From Acidimicrobiaceae bacterium (lineage in GTDB: Bacteria; Actinomycetota; Acidimicrobiia; Acidimicrobiales; Palsa-688): a DNA stretch of 40,234 nucleotides. Location: assembly GCA_003166025.1 (NCBI GenBank), contig PMWT01000101.1:21890-62123 (forward strand), given 5' to 3'. A program made the translations under genes and the position numbers. Below the pieces are notes generated by a model. That model saw only the letters and a program-made list of their open reading frames with translations. It was not told where the DNA came from and made no database searches. Positions 13,387-35,072 of this stretch are shown piece by piece (position 1 is the stretch's first letter; every line of letters starts with the position of its first letter).

Positions 13387-14427
13387 CTAGAGCGTGAGCG
13401 GCGGCACTGTCGTCCGGGGGACCGAGATCGGCCCGGAACCCTGCGCCGGAAGAAGGTGGTCGCACGCCTTCATCGCAGCCGCCGTCTTGGGATTGGTAGC
13501 CTGCGGGCCGCCGCCCCCAAATCCACCCGGCCCGCTGCCACCCGGCCCGCTGCCACCCGGCCCGCTGCCACCCGGCCCGCTGCCACCCGGCCCACGGTGC
13601 CCTCCGGTGCCGGGGAAACCGGACGAGAGCTTTACGCCGTGCGCGGCCATGCATGCCCTGAAGCTGGCGAGCGAGCTAGCGCCGGGGGGTGCTGAGGTCG
13701 GGGTTGCTACCGGTACGGCCGGTGCCACCGAAGTACCATGCCTGAAGTCGAGCAGGAACTCGAGGGTCCCGTGGTCTTGTGTGGTAACCGGGCCAAAGCT
13801 GGGGTTGGGTATCTTCCAACGACTGAACAGGACCGGTACCGAACCCAGTACCTGGATCGTGGTCCCGACGTGGCGGGCCTCCACCTCGAAGCCGACCGTC
13901 CTGGTCTGGCCCCGCAGGGTAAGGGCCCCCTCGGCGGCCATTGCCTTGACCACGCCGCTGGCAGCCGGGGCCCCAACCTTGATCGGCTGGGAGAGCACGA
14001 AGGTGGCCGTCGGATAGGTAGTGACGTCCATGACCCGGCCGCGGAACTGCGAGTCCCGTTGGCTGAAGTCGCTCTTTACGGTAGCCATCTCTACCGTAAA
14101 GGTCCCGGCGACAACGTTGGTACCACTTATGGTGATCGAGCCCGTTACGTCAGAAGTACGGCCCACCGCCGTGTTGTCCTGGCCGAAGAGCACCTCTTTG
14201 ACCCGGTAGCCCACCACTGAGCCCGTTGTCACCGACCACTTGCCGTCCAGCGGGACGCTACCGGCGTTGGGACCGGCATGCCCCGTGGCGGCCGAGAGCG
14301 TTAGCTTGGCCGGCGCTTTGCCCTCGATGAAGTGGATGAAGACGAAGGGGCCGCCGACGACAAGCACTAAAAGCACAACAACAGCTAACACGCCACGTCG
14401 CAACCATCGTCTCGGTCGTCGTCGCAT
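13387..14427 (-). CDS. Membrane-anchored YceI-family protein with Gly/Pro-rich tail
   Basis: 346 residues. An N-terminal anchor follows RRRPRRWLRR (LAVVVLLVLVVGGPFVFIHF, about 14-33). A YceI lipocalin-like domain spans about 58-235 (GKWSVTTGSVVGYRVKEVLF, then VTTYPTATFVLSQP, then LTLRGQTRTVGFEVEAR). Such proteins bind isoprenoid-like lipids at the cell envelope. The C-terminal 110 residues are unusual: a GPGGS repeat region lies between two short cysteine motifs, FRACMAAHGVKLSSG and AAAMKACDHLLP. These motifs occur, with intervening disordered sequence, in small actinobacterial lipoproteins, and the fusion to YceI is notable. Divergent from nothing; convergent with VOC. Confidence 0.85.
   Translation of the reverse strand: MRRRPRRWLRRGVLAVVVLLVLVVGGPFVFIHFIEGKAPAKLTLSAATGHAGPNAGSVPLDGKWSVTTGSVVGYRVKEVLFGQDNTAVGRTSDVTGSITISGTNVVAGTFTVEMATVKSDFSQRDSQFRGRVMDVTTYPTATFVLSQPIKVGAPAASGVVKAMAAEGALTLRGQTRTVGFEVEARHVGTTIQVLGSVPVLFSRWKIPNPSFGPVTTQDHGTLEFLLDFRHGTSVAPAVPVATPTSAPPGASSLASFRACMAAHGVKLSSGFPGTGGHRGPGGSGPGGSGPGGSGPGGSGPGGFGGGGPQATNPKTAAAMKACDHLLPAQGSGPISVPRTTVPPLTL
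13526..13585. repeat. Four perfect 15-bp tandem repeats inside the YceI gene
   Basis: Unit CCCGGCCCGCTGCCA repeated four times in phase with codons, encoding GSGPG units. Exact copies suggest recent slippage expansion and probable length variation between strains. Confidence 0.9.
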
Positions 14428-16211: not shown

Positions 16212-16769
16212 TCATCCGCTCTCAGCCAGCCCTTCGACGCTCACCGCCCCGCCTCCCAGGTCGATGGCCGCCCCGCCGACCCGGGCAGGGATGTGCTCAG
16301 GTTCCCGAGGGGACGGGGCGGTCGGTCCGCCGCCCCTCCCGGCGGGTGGCACCGCTACCCAGGTGGCCAGCGCCTCCGCTCTCTCATCGCTCGCCAGTTC
16401 GGTGCTCTCAACCGCCGTCCCGTGGCTGGGGCCGAGGAGGCCGCTCAAGCCGCAGGCAAGCGCCACCCGCCCGACGGGAGCCGACGGCGACCGGACTGTC
16501 AACGACCGGGACCGCTGCCGCAGGAAGTCCCGGGCCCGGACTATGACCCCGAGCGTCGAGGCGGCCATGAACGTGACTTGGCTCATATCGAGGACCAGCC
16601 CGGCGCTGTCCAGGGCAATGGCACGGGCCAAGGTCAGGCATAGAGCATCGTCGGTGGAGAGGTCGTGCTCCCCCACCAGCCAGACGATGATCGGGCTCGC
16701 TTCAGTTTCGTTCCGCCTCGAGGTAGGTCGGTCGGAGACGGTGAAGAAAGAAGATCCGAGAAGGGCCAT
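16212..16769 (-). CDS. STAS-domain protein (anti-anti-sigma-like)
   Basis: 185 residues. An STAS fold lies at about 25-120 (IIVWLVGEHDLSTDDALCLT, then LVLDMSQVTFMAASTLGV). The remaining tail is low in hydrophobics and rich in Pro and Gly. In classic anti-anti-sigma factors the motif is FMDSSGLGV and the first Ser is phosphorylated by a switch kinase. Here it reads FMAASTLGV, so the Asp and the acceptor Ser are both Ala. The protein may be locked in one state or use the next Ser. ATG 16769 follows GGCAGGAG. The transcript carries the type A leader described separately and continues into GAF-ANTAR 2. Confidence 0.82.
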   Translation of the reverse strand: MALLGSSFFTVSDRPTSRRNETEASPIIVWLVGEHDLSTDDALCLTLARAIALDSAGLVLDMSQVTFMAASTLGVIVRARDFLRQRSRSLTVRSPSAPVGRVALACGLSGLLGPSHGTAVESTELASDERAEALATWVAVPPAGRGGGPTAPSPREPEHIPARVGGAAIDLGGGAVSVEGLAESG

Positions 16770-16886
16770 GGCTCTCCTGCCTCAGGCTGTGCGAAAAGGT
16801 CGCGTTACCAGGGTCTGGAGTACCGCCCCCGACCAGCTTATGCCAGCCCGACACGTCGGGGCTTTTGTCGTGTCCCCCTGACCGTA
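16770..16886 (-). ncRNA. Structured leader, type A copy 1 (upstream of STAS-ANTAR)
   Basis: On the minus strand a -10-like TACGGT (16881-16886), in the conserved context AAAAGGTG, is followed by GACACGAC and a GC stem with ACGTGTCGG inside. A sub-hairpin GCTGG / CTGGT comes next. The core hairpin (16802-16826) has outer stem GCGGTA / TAACGC, a CT bulge and tip CCAG-ACC-CTGG. A ribosome binding site and the STAS start follow. Two further copies (27083-27197 and 34935-35072) keep these parts, and the sub-hairpin varies by paired changes. Orientation toward a gene and position after a promoter-like box argue for a cis-regulatory RNA. I know no family matching it. Confidence 0.6.
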
Positions 16887-19983: not shown

Positions 19984-20071
19984 CTGGTAAGATGGCTAGT
20001 TCTTAGGCGTTGCTCCGGACCCCGGTAGCGCATGCGACCCGAACGTGCCTACCAAGGGTGGTGTTTGTGCA
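19984..20071 (+). ncRNA. Structured leader, type B copy 1 (upstream of lemA)
   Basis: Extended -10 TGG-TAAGAT (hexamer 19988-19993) is followed 13 bases later by the core hairpin at 20007-20031: outer stem GCGTTG / TAGCGC, CT bulge, tip CCGG-ACC-CCGG. Then come a conserved ACGTG, the ribosome binding site AAGGGTGGTG and the lemA ATG at 20072. Bases GCGCA at the end of the core can instead pair with TGTGC just before the start codon, which would compete with the core stem. Copies at 27328-27407 and 29227-29307 keep all these parts. Confidence 0.65.
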
Positions 20072-20719
20072 ATGCCCAGTTTGCTTATTGTTGCCGTAGT
20101 CGTTGTCGCCTTGCTCTGTCTCGGCGGGCTTGCTTTCAACGGCCTGGTCCGCCGGCGCAACCGCGTCCAGGAAGCCTGGTCGGAGATAGACGTCGAACTG
20201 AAGCGCCGACATGACCTCATCCCCAACCTGGTAGAAACCGTAAAGGGTTACGCCTCCCACGAAAGCAAGACTTTCGAAGCCGTAACAGCAGCGCGCGCCG
20301 GTGCGGTGAGCGCCGGGGCCACGGGCGACCCTGCCAAGGTCGGGGCGGCAGAAAACGTGCTCTCCCAGACGCTGCGCTCGCTTTTCGCCGTGTCGGAAAA
20401 CTATCCGCAACTGCGCGCCGTTGAGACTTTCCTTCAGCTCCAGGAACAGCTCACTGCCACCGAGGACAAGCTCGAGTACGCCCGCCGTTTCTATAACACC
20501 AGTGGACGGGACTACAACATCGCGCTGCAGAGCTTCCCACGGAACCTGTTGGCGGGGCCGTTCGGGTTCCATGCCGTCGCTTTCTTTCAGACCGACGAGG
20601 CCGAGCGCCAAGTCCCCGAAGTCAACTTCACAGGCCCGCCCAGCGCGACCACGTCCAATGGTTCATCGGCTCCTTCCGCCCCTCCGGTCTCGACCGGGTC
20701 GGGCCCTCCGACGGCTTGA
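20072..20719 (+). CDS. lemA: LemA family protein
   Basis: 215 residues. One N-terminal membrane span (LLIVAVVVVALLCLGGLAF) leads to a cytoplasmic or surface helical bundle with the family signature NRVQEAWSEIDVELKRRHDL followed by IPNLVETVKGYASHE, and the terminal ENKLEYARRFYN-type motif (here EDKLEYARRFYNTSGRDYN). The Ser/Pro-rich tail is extra. LemA proteins are usually encoded next to an HtpX-type protease, as here (11-base gap), and are linked to membrane protein quality control. The start at ATG 20072 is set by AAGGGTGG and by the conserved leader. An in-frame GTG at 20045 would run through the leader. Confidence 0.95.
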   Translation: MPSLLIVAVVVVALLCLGGLAFNGLVRRRNRVQEAWSEIDVELKRRHDLIPNLVETVKGYASHESKTFEAVTAARAGAVSAGATGDPAKVGAAENVLSQTLRSLFAVSENYPQLRAVETFLQLQEQLTATEDKLEYARRFYNTSGRDYNIALQSFPRNLLAGPFGFHAVAFFQTDEAERQVPEVNFTGPPSATTSNGSSAPSAPPVSTGSGPPTA

Positions 20720-27083: not shown

Positions 27084-27197
27084 GGCACGCTCCCACCGCA
27101 GGCATTGTGATGTCGCTACCAGGGTCTGGAGTACCGCCCCCAGCCAGTGCGGCTGGCCCAACACGTCCGGGGCTGTTATCGCGTCACCACAATTGTA
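27084..27197 (-). ncRNA. Structured leader, type A copy 2
   Basis: -10-like TACAAT (27192-27197) in context AAAAGGTG. Next come GACGCGAT, the GCCCC/GGGGC stem with ACGTGTTGG, and a sub-hairpin GCCAG / CTGGC. The core (27115-27140) has tip CCAG-ACC-CTGG. The sub-hairpin differs from copy 1 (GCTGG / CTGGT) by paired changes. The outer core stem is weaker here than in copies 1 and 3. Confidence 0.55.
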
Positions 27198-27234: not shown

Positions 27235-27327
27235 CTACCCACGCCGTTTGGCCTCGCCTTTTGTAGCAAAAACCACACTACTCAGCAGGCCGACAGGGAT
27301 GAGGGCCCCGATCACCCATATAAGCAT
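27235..27327 (-). CDS. Small membrane peptide after type B leader, 30 residues
   Basis: ATG 27327 with binding site AAGGGTGGTG in the same position as for lemA. It encodes 30 residues: MLIWVIGALIPVGLLSSVVF forms one membrane span, then the tail ATKGEAKRRG is positively charged, so an N-out/C-in single-pass peptide is expected. Its first codons resemble those of the micro-ORF before the SPFH gene (VLIY against MLIW). The presence of a full leader, good binding site and clean span-plus-charge layout makes it a credible gene despite its size. It may regulate a membrane protease or complex; function unknown. Confidence 0.5.
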   Translation of the reverse strand: MLIWVIGALIPVGLLSSVVFATKGEAKRRG

Positions 27328-27407
27328 TGCATCAACACCACCCTTGAGGCACGTCTAAAAGAACATGCGCTACCGGGGTCCGGAGCAACGCCGAGGAACT
27401 CATCCTA
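27328..27407 (-). ncRNA. Structured leader, type B copy 2
   Basis: Extended -10 TGG-TAGGAT (27402-27407), ten bases, then the core hairpin (27367-27391) with sequence identical to lemA copy 1 over all 25 positions. ACGTGCC and AAGGGTGGTG lead to the 30-residue ORF. GCAT at the core edge can pair with ATGC before the start codon. Confidence 0.6.
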
Positions 27408-28222: not shown

Positions 28223-29071
28223 TCAGGTGCCCTTCGGCTCGGGCGGCACCTCTGCGCCTTTCCCCCTGCCGTTGGCCGAGGGTGGAGGCAGCTTGGCCAT
28301 GGCGCCCGTCTCTCGGGACAGGAAGGCGCCGATCTCTTGGATCGTGCTCATGAGCGGACCAGGGAAGACCACCGTCGTGTTCTTGTCGACACCGATCTCG
28401 ATCAGGGTCTGCAGGTTGCGGAGCTGGAGCGCCAGCGGGTGGACCATCATGATGTCGGACGCTTCCCCGAGAGCGGTAGCGGCCAGGGACTCGCCTTCTG
28501 CCGCGATGATCTTGGCCCGCTTCTCGCGCTCCGCCTCCGCCTGACGGGCCATGGCCCGCTTCATCGTGTCCGGTAACTGGATGTCCTTTAGCTCCACCAG
28601 GGTCACGAGCACGCCCCAATCCGCGGTTTGGATGTCGAGGATCTCCTTGATGTCCACGTTGATGCGGTCGGTCTCCGCCAGCATCTCGTCGAGGGTGTGC
28701 TGGCCCACGACCTTGCGCAGCGTTGTCTGGGCGATCTGGTTGATCGCGGCCTCGATATTCTCGATGGCGATGACCGACTTGGTCGCGTCCACGACGCGGT
28801 AGTAGGACACGGCCGACACGTCAACGCTCACGTTGTCCCGGGTGATGATGCCCTGGGACTGGATCGGCATCGTAACGATCCGGAAGGACACCTTGCGCAG
28901 CACGTTGACGAACGGCACGATAGCGACAAGTCCCGGGCCCTTTTCACCGGTGACCCGGCCGAAGCGGAAAACGACCCCCTTTTCGTACTGCTGGACTATG
29001 TGAAAAGCGGACGCGAACACGATCAGCGCAACGACCACCACAACGACGATGGCCACGACTACGCCGGTCAT
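28223..29071 (-). CDS. SPFH/band-7 protein (slipin, stomatin-like)
   Basis: 282 residues. One N-terminal span (VVVAIVVVVVVALIVFASAF) is followed by the PHB domain: VQQYEKGVVFRFGRVTGEKG, GPGLVAIVPFVNVLRKVSFR, then NVSVDVSAVSYYRVVDATKS and the helix QAEAEREKRAKIIAAEGESL. This is the bacterial slipin type, which forms oligomeric membrane microdomain scaffolds and usually pairs with an NfeD-type protease partner. No NfeD gene is next to it. Instead, its ATG overlaps the stop of a 52-residue ORF (ATGA) that follows a type B leader, so translation of the two is coupled. Confidence 0.93.
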   Translation of the reverse strand: MTGVVVAIVVVVVVALIVFASAFHIVQQYEKGVVFRFGRVTGEKGPGLVAIVPFVNVLRKVSFRIVTMPIQSQGIITRDNVSVDVSAVSYYRVVDATKSVIAIENIEAAINQIAQTTLRKVVGQHTLDEMLAETDRINVDIKEILDIQTADWGVLVTLVELKDIQLPDTMKRAMARQAEAEREKRAKIIAAEGESLAATALGEASDIMMVHPLALQLRNLQTLIEIGVDKNTTVVFPGPLMSTIQEIGAFLSRETGAMAKLPPPSANGRGKGAEVPPEPKGT

Positions 29072-29226
29072 GTGCGCTCAGCTCCGGGTTGCGGCGCACC
29101 TTTGCCGAGGCGACCACGAGGGACAGGCCCGGCCCACGTAACCGCCGCCCAGGGACGCAAGCTGTAGCCCTTTAGAGTTCCCTCCAGGCCGAGGACGACG
29201 TCATGGCGGGCTTGGTAGATGAGCAC
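29068..29226 (-). CDS. Upstream ORF coupled to the SPFH gene, 52 residues
   Basis: GTG 29226 follows AAGGGTGGTG and the type B leader exactly as in the other two copies, and the stop overlaps the SPFH start (ATGA). The peptide begins VLIYQARHDVVLGLEG and is Gly/Pro/Arg-rich later, with no membrane span. An in-frame GTG at 29250 lies inside the leader and is less likely. It is either a regulatory leader peptide whose translation opens the SPFH start, or the decayed descendant of a small protein gene like the 30-residue one at 27235-27327. Confidence 0.5.
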   Translation of the reverse strand: MLIYQARHDVVLGLEGTLKGYSLRPWAAVTWAGPVPRGRLGKGAPQPGAERT

Positions 29227-29307
29227 TGCGTCAACACCACCCTTGTTCACGTGTTAGGGAGCGCAGACGCCACCGGGGTCCGGAGCAACGCTGACCAGCT
29301 CACGCTA
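29227..29307 (-). ncRNA. Structured leader, type B copy 3 (upstream of SPFH)
   Basis: Extended -10 TGG-TAGCGT (29302-29307) with a -35-like TTGTCA 16 bases upstream. Core 29267-29291: stem GCGTTG / TGGCGT (pairs kept by G-T exchange), CT bulge, tip CCGG-ACC-CCGG. ACGTG and AAGGGTGGTG follow. GCGTC at the core edge can pair perfectly with GACGC directly before the start codon, whereas copy 1 uses GCGCA with TGTGC: a compensatory change supporting an alternative pairing. Confidence 0.65.
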
Positions 29308-31019: not shown

Positions 31020-31064
31020 CAAAGTTCGCCGCGGACCTCTACACGGGAGGCCCGATGGTCCCAG

Positions 31065-31123
31065 GCGATATTAGGTCCAAGCGATATTAGGCCCAAGCGA
31101 TATTAGGCCCAAGCGATATTAGG
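31065..31123. repeat. Four 16-bp direct repeats with AT-rich core
   Basis: GCGATATTAGG recurs at 31065, 31081, 31097 and 31113 with exact 16-base period and spacer TCCAA or CCCAA. The last copy runs into the stop codon of the exported-protein gene on the minus strand. The spacing is not a multiple of the 10.5-base helical turn. Could be a protein-binding array or simple slippage. Confidence 0.85.
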
Positions 31124-31640: not shown

Positions 31641-32153
31641 CTTCCTCTACCTTTCTTTGTTTGTCTTTCCAGACCGGCCCGCCTATAGTGTTCAGAGTTC
31701 TGACCATCTCGGCGTAGCCGGGTAAGCATTGACGCGGCCCAACATGTAGCGGGGGAGCCAAATGAAAGGGCCCTAAAACTAAGCGTTTTGTTCATAAATC
31801 AGCTTTGGGCCCGTCCGAGGGACGTTCGGCTTCACGGGTCATGCGACCAGGGTCCCCTCGCGGGGCCAAGGAAGGCACGGTAACCAAAGCTTGCTAGCCG
31901 CCAAGGAAATTATTTTGCCTCTCTCGGCACCGGTCGACCTTGGCTTAGCACTATGGCCGTCACCAGGGACTGGAGCAACGAGGCACTCGAAGGTGCTCTT
32001 GGCGCTATCTTACAGGGCCCAGGGCGCAAACCGCACGACAAAGCGCCAACCTTCCGGGTCGGGGGCACCGAGGAAAGAGCTTCCCCGGTCCTAAAGCGAC
32101 GGCACGAGTGTCCCGACTAAACGAATTAGCCACAAGGCACCGATGGGGGAACA
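31641..32153. other. Intergenic region with type C leader and AT-rich hairpin
   Basis: No gene. It contains the type C leader (31958-32012, minus strand). A long-loop inverted repeat GGGCCC (about 31770 and 31810) encloses AAAACTAAGCGTTTT, a palindrome with possible terminator function. An ACTATAGG -10-like site near 31682-31689 lies on the minus strand, closer to the exported-protein start. Confidence 0.45.
31958..32012 (-). ncRNA. Structured leader, divergent type C copy
   Basis: -10-like TAAGAT (32007-32012) is followed by a small hairpin (GCAC, loop CTTCG, AGTGC region) and then the core at 31958-31980: stem CGTTG / TGACG, CT bulge, tip CCAG-TCC-CTGG. The stem pairs are kept although several bases differ from types A and B. 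The nearest gene in this direction is the duplicated-domain exported protein, 318 bases away, so the link is less sure than for other copies. Confidence 0.4.
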
Positions 32154-34934: not shown

Positions 34935-35072
34935 AGATCCGGAAAAGGTTTTTGGCACTGTCCTGCCTCAGGCACTGCGAAAGATCGCGTTACCAGGGTC
35001 TGGAGTACCGCCCCCGGCCAGCTCGTACCGGCCCGGCACGTCGGGGAATTTGTCGTGTCCCTCCTAACCTTA
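34935..35072 (-). ncRNA. Structured leader, type A copy 3 (upstream of PRC-barrel copy 2)
   Basis: -10-like TAAGGT (35067-35072) is followed by GGGACACGAC, the CCCCG/CGGGG stem with ACGTGCCGG, and a sub-hairpin GCCGG / CTGGC with loop TACGAG. The core (34987-35011) is identical to copy 1. Then GCGATCTTTCGC and GCCTGAGGC hairpins. Confidence 0.6.

Follow-up and report, generated by a model that had tools for sequence, protein, structure and literature searches.

Mutually exclusive predicted folds of a conserved core element in mRNA leaders of Acidimicrobiaceae: a candidate translational switch

The stretch of DNA analysed here, hereafter the window (40,234 nucleotides of an Acidimicrobiaceae bacterium), carries three short leaders built around copies of a multi-copy core with the consensus GUUGCUCCRGACCCYGGURRCG. 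The three copies are one RNA-sense element. Judged from sequence and predicted folding, the core would be a conserved cis-acting element at the 5' ends of mRNAs, able to adopt mutually exclusive folds and thereby to act as a translational switch, an explanation to which, taken as a whole, we give an even chance of being correct. The best reading of these core leaders would be an unlisted, order-restricted family of translational leaders, in which the core probably decides whether the protein is made.

The distribution of the core was established with the pattern GTTGCTCCRGACCCYGGTNRCG, allowing at most two mismatches, the reversed pattern serving as a control. The window's genome possesses 19 sites vs. 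none with the reversed pattern, and the tally over the 32 genomes of the family is 107 vs. 4, with 21 of the 32 genomes holding the core pattern. At one mismatch, the core was found in 25 of the 248 genomes of the order (own genome included) and in a single one of 149 genomes across the phylum, which is the own genome. The named records with a form of the core pattern are metagenome-assembled genomes of Acidimicrobiaceae or other Actinomycetota, four out of five being from palsa peat according to their isolate names. A start codon with a Shine-Dalgarno sequence follows the core at 70 of 131 sites in the sense direction, vs. 8 in antisense. Concerning the core itself, 8 of its 22 positions are occupied by one base in at least 97% of 138 sites, a conservation inflated by the selection of these sites for core similarity, and UYGCU is present at positions 2-6 in 93 of them. 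Divergent pairs of cores, oriented outwards and spaced by no more than a few hundred bases, are common (L141, L134, L132, L125, L128, L058 and L073; about 1.1 kb at L142). Rfam 15 (4227 families) gave no gathering-level match in the window and no match at E <=1 for 12 loci; when E was relaxed to 5, an unrelated cow-rumen-1 match (E 2.7) was the only one for the region holding copies 2 and 3. Known Rfam families were thus rejected, none fitting the core leaders. A literature search of limited scope found no description of the core element, which does not show that the element is unpublished.

The positions of the features found in the window are given in Table 1. Copies 1 to 3 belong to a short leader type (type C), with a common layout: a -10-like TANNNT, the core, a variable stretch, AAGGGTGGTG and the start codon. 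TANNNT lies 11-16 nt upstream of the core in all 11 scored type C leaders; from the distance of TAAGAT in copy 1, the core would sit near the 5' end of the mRNA. Copy 1 precedes lemA, and similarity to parts of LemA is seen in the open frames after copy 2 (30 aa, E 0.044) and copy 3 (52 aa, E 3.7e-5); the three copies therefore probably go back to duplication. The frame behind copy 2 (27327-27238, minus strand) resembles the LemA N-terminus and is probably a LemA remnant. The frame behind copy 3 (29226-29071, minus strand), resembling a LemA fragment with 38.8% identity, overlaps at its end the start of an SPFH/Band_7 gene (28223-29071) by an ATGA, and the copy 3 leader may therefore act on this gene by translational coupling. 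Short lemA-like genes are also present behind type C leaders in relatives (L056, L066, L075 and others), and lemA leaders seem to have been duplicated repeatedly.

Table 1. Positions and strands of core leaders and their parts in the window
Feature	Position	Strand	Remark
-10-like hexamer TAAGAT	19988..19993	+	15 nt upstream of core 1
5' arm GGCGTTGC, copy 1	20006..20013	+	Able to pair with start codon region; minimum-energy fold
Core of copy 1, GTTGCTCCGGACCCCGGTAGCG	20009..20030	+	5' end of lemA leader
GGTAGCGCATG, 5' strand of rival hairpin P2	20024..20034	+	Overlaps 3' arm of core; minimum-energy fold, leader-specific complementarity
GCGCA, copy 1	20028..20032	+	Segment of the preliminary description
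CGTGCCTACC, 3' strand of P2	20044..20053	+	Directly before Shine-Dalgarno
Shine-Dalgarno-like AAGGGTGG, copy 1	20054..20061	+	Conserved in type C alignment
TGTGC, copy 1	20066..20070	+	Segment of the preliminary description
GCAATGCC, including lemA ATG (20072-20074)	20069..20076	+	Partner of 5' arm, minimum-energy fold
lemA, 215 aa	20072..20719	+	Pfam LemA, E 7.4e-56
Core of copy 2	27368..27389	-	
5' arm GGCGTTGC, copy 2	27385..27392	-	Minimum-energy fold
GCAATGCT, including copy 2 ATG (27327-27325)	27323..27330	-	Partner of 5' arm, minimum-energy fold
Core of copy 3	29268..29289	-	Inside the segment treated in the preliminary description
5' arm AGCGTTGC, copy 3	29285..29292	-	Type C alignment
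GCAGTGCT, including copy 3 GTG (29226-29224)	29222..29229	-	Possible partner of 5' arm; minimum-energy fold uses another helix
Hairpin GCGUC-U-GCGCUCCCU...AGGG-U-GGUGU-U-GACGC, copy 3	29228..29270	-	Minimum-energy fold; buries Shine-Dalgarno, contains helix of the preliminary description
Shine-Dalgarno-like AAGGGTGG, copy 3	29237..29244	-	
3' arm GCGTC, copy 3	29270-29266	-	
GACGC, copy 3	29232-29228	-	Directly before GTG
Longer leader	16801..16875	-	Upstream hairpins and core (16824-16803), before STAS gene (ATG at 16769)
Longer leader	27112..27186	-	Core 27135-27114; short open frame only after
Longer leader	34986..35060	-	Core 35009-34988; start codon apparently lost
Further core	31958..31979	-	One mismatch

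As for the longer leader types, they possess an upstream module made of a GKTGTANNNT element (39 of 60 A/B leaders), the hairpins P_a (GACACG/CGUGUY) and P_b, and a GGGAGC directly before the core, able to pair with its GCUCC. In an alignment of 27 leaders, P_a, P_b and the GGGAGC/GCUCC hairpin together hold 19 cells changed on both sides of a pair vs. 4.5 in shuffles, none of 500 being as high; all 19 are located in P_a and P_b, and the P_a pairs include G-U besides G-C and A-U. The 26 leaders of alignment A5, a sister type, displayed no covariation above shuffles in their upstream hairpins. A covariance model of the 27-leader set finds both longer types in 11 of the 32 genomes, with 14 in the own genome, including three in the window. 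One of these three, at 35009-34988, is a full longer leader with AAA where its relatives have ATG, and seems to be a decayed copy. In the P_a loop of alignments A4 and A5, a nearly invariant CCC could form a pseudoknot with the GGG before the core, these bases being too conserved for covariation testing. In a further leader type, several leaders carry GGAGCAAC at the Shine-Dalgarno, to which GUUGCUCC is exactly complementary. Two AGGGTGGTG matches (L161 and L164), which lie in an apparent coding region and are devoid of the core, were dropped. The window also contains four intergenic tandem repeats of 16 nt of the type CCCAAGCGATATTAGG (31060-31123) and a tandem 15-nt repeat, CCACCCGGCCCGCTG (13523-13597).

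The genes following the core leaders are diverse, many of them serving stress responses and signalling. A protein census was made on 109 of 124 called frames, and the Pfam families, which overlap, include, among the 25 of 36 listed, STAS (28), fatty acid desaturase (7), GAF_2 (6), GGDEF (5), ANTAR (5), EAL (4), sigma-70 region 4 (4), LemA (3) and CsbD (1).

The folding analyses started from 156 core sites at up to three mismatches, narrowed to 140 at up to two and to 126 with a called start. A set of 98 leaders was defined by a Shine-Dalgarno energy of -5 or better and a start within 85 nt, three starts being set by hand; 97 of them have 12 nt upstream. The type C alignment comprises 12 rows, L060 being left out for its displaced start. 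Leader specificity was assessed by comparing each leader's own partners with swapped ones in 86, 68 and 39 non-redundant leaders. As starts were called by Shine-Dalgarno score, sites were chosen by core similarity and the leaders are related, all p values are guides only.

Three helices compete for the core: its two arms can pair with each other (hairpin P1), its 5' arm with the initiation region, and its 3' half with the bases preceding the Shine-Dalgarno (hairpin P2). P1 draws on bases that its two rivals also need, which makes these helices mutually exclusive. The minimum-energy folds predicted for copies 1 and 2 have GGCGUUGC bound to GCAAUGCY, AUG included, around P2, which in copy 1 is formed by GGUAGCGCAUG with CGUGCCUACC. 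The start helix of the 5' arm is paired in 94.8% of the cells of the 12 type C leaders; the 5' arm being nearly invariant in this type, this is complementarity without covariation. The count of the longest unbroken 5' arm helix was set aside for the window copies, as it includes wobble-rich Shine-Dalgarno pairings.

In the 86 non-redundant leaders, the 5' arm binds its own initiation region at -10.16 kcal/mol vs. -9.36 for those of other leaders (p 0.0002; 0.0006 in the 68 and 0.0039 in the 39), and the 3' half its own pre-Shine-Dalgarno segment at -12.48 vs. -11.35 (p 0.0001 in all three sets). The core arms prefer each other as well, at -7.58 vs. -7.22 (p 0.021, 0.028 and 0.0099 in the 86, 68 and 39 leaders, respectively), and the P1 pairs (-1,23), (3,19) and (9,15) exceed shuffles over the 138 sites (p 0.008, 0.001 and 0.012); the second pair of P1 is broken in 24 of 27 type B leaders. 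By these comparisons, the leader-specific partner of the 5' arm is the initiation region, and that of the 3' half is the stretch upstream of the Shine-Dalgarno. Folding energies of whole leaders are ordinary in six type C leaders (z -1.44 to +0.12).

When the 98 leaders were folded freely, the mean probability of the 5' arm/initiation helix was 0.58, vs. 0.43 for swapped regions and 0.29 for shuffled ones, and the equilibrium probability of P1 was about 0.03. In prefix folds of copies 1 to 3, the core hairpin is kept until the start region is made, at which point copies 1 and 2 go over to the fold with the start hidden. With the core out of play, the initiation region becomes more open in 83 of the 98 leaders (from 0.35 to 0.47). 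A "no P1" constraint, which barred the core from all pairing, and the forcing of P1 give practically the same openness of the start (0.469 barred vs. 0.474 forced), the opening being therefore not specific to P1.

The leader-specific signal varies between sets. Among the 27 leaders of other families, p was 0.067 for the 5' arm with the initiation region, 0.66 for P1 and 0.0004 for P2; among the 13 leaders of the own genome, it was 0.0004 for the 5' arm, 0.51 for P2 and 0.46 for P1. Of 11 leaders that the covariance model yielded at a later stage, L203 and L205 were dropped for want of a clear start; in the nine others, which served as a held-out set, complementarity was not specific to the leader, either for the 5' arm (p 0.68) or for P2 (p 0.89). 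As a whole, a pair of exclusive folds with the initiation signals buried in one of them finds backing in the ensemble, prefix and swap tests and none in the nine held-out leaders.

The preliminary description had proposed another helix, in which the 3' arm of the core pairs with the bases directly before the start codon, with partners that differ between the three copies and stay complementary. The letters and places do exist, on the plus strand for copy 1 and the minus strand for copies 2 and 3: GCGCA/TGTGC in copy 1 and GCGTC/GACGC in copy 3 are as described, whereas GCAT/ATGC in copy 2 is in a different register from the two others. Among relatives, the helix does not exceed chance. It is paired in 70.0% of the cells of the 12 type C leaders, a value reached by 293 of 500 shuffles, and all five bases are paired only in copies 1 and 3. 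In the 97 leaders, at least four pairs between the 3' arm and the nine pre-start bases occur in 52, vs. 51% of swapped combinations, and at least five in 22 (22.7%), vs. 21.3%. The same description had cautioned that pairs of four to five bases may arise by chance. Duplex energies are likewise no better than swapped ones in the 98 leaders (p 0.42) or in the non-redundant sets (p 0.64, 0.41 and 0.42). Homologous leaders keep the core while this complementarity is at chance level (p 0.41-0.64 in the non-redundant sets, 0.64 in the 27 leaders of other families), the outcome that the preliminary description had named as a refutation, and the helix was rejected as a property of the family. Only in copy 3 does GCGUC/GACGC appear in the predicted minimum-energy fold, at the foot of the hairpin burying the Shine-Dalgarno, and this leader folds no more stably than its shuffles (z 0.12). 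The idea that one fold frees the start and the other hides it is supported for the core folded on itself vs. the core covering the initiation region, which are mutually exclusive, and not for the helix named; the 5' arm would be a better candidate than the 3' arm for the start-hiding strand.

Translational control, also suggested at that stage, agrees with the composition of the leaders. Among the 98 leaders, runs of T in the stretch from core to start reach 4 at most, on which ground transcription attenuation was rejected. No terminator-like site is present at copy 3, and the two found at copy 1 are weak, one lying inside lemA. The leaders thus support a control that would be translational.

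A possible course of events would be as follows. In the emerging RNA, the core would fold on itself as P1. Once the initiation region is made, the 5' arm, with its anti-Shine-Dalgarno CUCC, would pair with the Shine-Dalgarno and start codon, and the 3' half would pair with the segment just before the Shine-Dalgarno, giving P2. In this predicted equilibrium fold the start would be hidden (OFF). Were the core held in its own fold by a protein, a metabolite, a small RNA or slow refolding, the start would be free (ON). In a subset of leaders, the upstream P_a and P_b followed by GGGAGC beside GCUCC may offer another way of occupying the 5' arm. The computation shows the shared multi-copy element lying in sense before starts and the leader-specific complementarity of the two rival helices; switching in cells, its direction and any trigger are what we infer. 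According to PMC2817708, adjacent RNA folds exchange fast in cells, which argues against a long-lived kinetic trap.

Several other explanations were weighed. The core might be read by a trans-acting RNA-binding protein or small RNA, the initiation pairing being each gene's own coupling. The core is indeed more conserved than its partners, and the platforms vary between leader types around the same core; a metabolite would nevertheless give the same picture, and the selection by core inflates the conservation, so that we hold this explanation to be unlikely. We think equally little of the possibility that the core has another function and that its complementarity to the initiation region is a by-product of an anti-Shine-Dalgarno-like CUCC and shared ancestry. 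Any CUCC pairs with GGAG, the held-out leaders lack a leader-specific signal, and the copies in the window have the look of relatives of a single lemA leader; yet swapped-partner controls with the same Shine-Dalgarno signals still score lower, including in the non-redundant sets.

An RNA thermometer of the ROSE kind, in which the 5' arm (U-U/C-G-C-U before CC) would close the Shine-Dalgarno and start in the cold and melt in the warm, appears improbable. Many copies per genome and the frequent UYGCU, which is the short ROSE motif given in the review PMC9450479, speak for it. Against it stand the Rfam results given above, with cow-rumen-1 as the only hit, and the predicted starts, closed up to 65 C in copies 1 and 2 and partly open at all temperatures in copy 3; melting not being predicted for copies 1 and 2, a melting thermometer is disfavoured. 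Moreover, it leaves the conserved half CCRGACCCYGG without a role, and no small heat-shock family is present among the 25 of 36 Pfam families listed for the 109 downstream proteins. Fatty acid desaturases, found among these proteins, would rather be needed in the cold. The least probable reading is a DNA-level element, i.e. part of a promoter or a dyad operator, without a role in RNA. At the DNA level, the sequences of the core hairpin and of P_a likewise form inverted repeats, and GKTGTANNNT lies upstream in many A/B leaders; in the scored type C leaders, however, the core is downstream of TANNNT at the short distance given above, hence within the transcript (about 67 nt in A/B), G-U pairs occur in P_a besides G-C and A-U ones, and the complementarity to the initiation region is leader-specific.

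Returning to the translational switch, a wider form of it, which we put forward as tentative and somewhat doubtful, would be a regulon-wide, order-restricted class: one signal, read by the 22-nt core (in many leaders together with P_a/P_b and possibly the P_a loop CCC/GGG pseudoknot), would set the translation of about 20 genes per genome related to stress signalling, second messengers and the membrane, each of them using a distinct anti-initiation pairing with the one core strand. Should this hold, uncultivated Acidimicrobiia-type soil bacteria would control a stress and signalling regulon at the level of translation through one reused RNA element, whereas better-known bacteria use sigma factors for such a regulon. 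A new family would then be added to the known leader RNAs, together with natural variants of the expression platform built on the same switching strand.

Compared with known systems, the core leaders share with ROSE elements their short, multi-copy 5' leaders and a UYGCU strand able to cover the Shine-Dalgarno or start; in the predicted folds of copies 1 and 2, this strand is paired to the start codon and not to the Shine-Dalgarno. They differ by the lack of an Rfam match, other genes, no predicted melting in the biological range, the extra conserved half CCRGACCCYGG and a clear alternative hairpin. Some downstream genes encode GAF-ANTAR proteins, as might suit ANTAR targets, but the aligned leaders are devoid of the dual stem-loops bearing hexanucleotide A1/G4 loops described in PMC8164766: by eye, in alignments A3-A5, the loops measure 3 nt in the core, mostly 4 nt in P_b (in A4) and at least 12 nt in P_a. 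Loop sizes not fitting, ANTAR targets were rejected, and the core leaders are filed as members of neither ROSE nor ANTAR targets. With cspA-type leaders, as outlined in PMC9450479, they have in common two exclusive folds, here predicted ones, one hiding the initiation region; they are shorter and precede many unrelated genes, with no cold-shock domain gene among the listed families. For copies 1 and 2, the equilibrium prediction gives no exchange of folds at temperatures from 4 to 65 C. As in translational riboswitches, a conserved core strand would double as a start mask, expression platforms are variable and some leaders have an upstream, covarying multi-hairpin module, but no known class matches them. 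The core leaders would work like a switching translational leader, of the cspA type or a riboswitch, while recalling ROSE through UYGCU.
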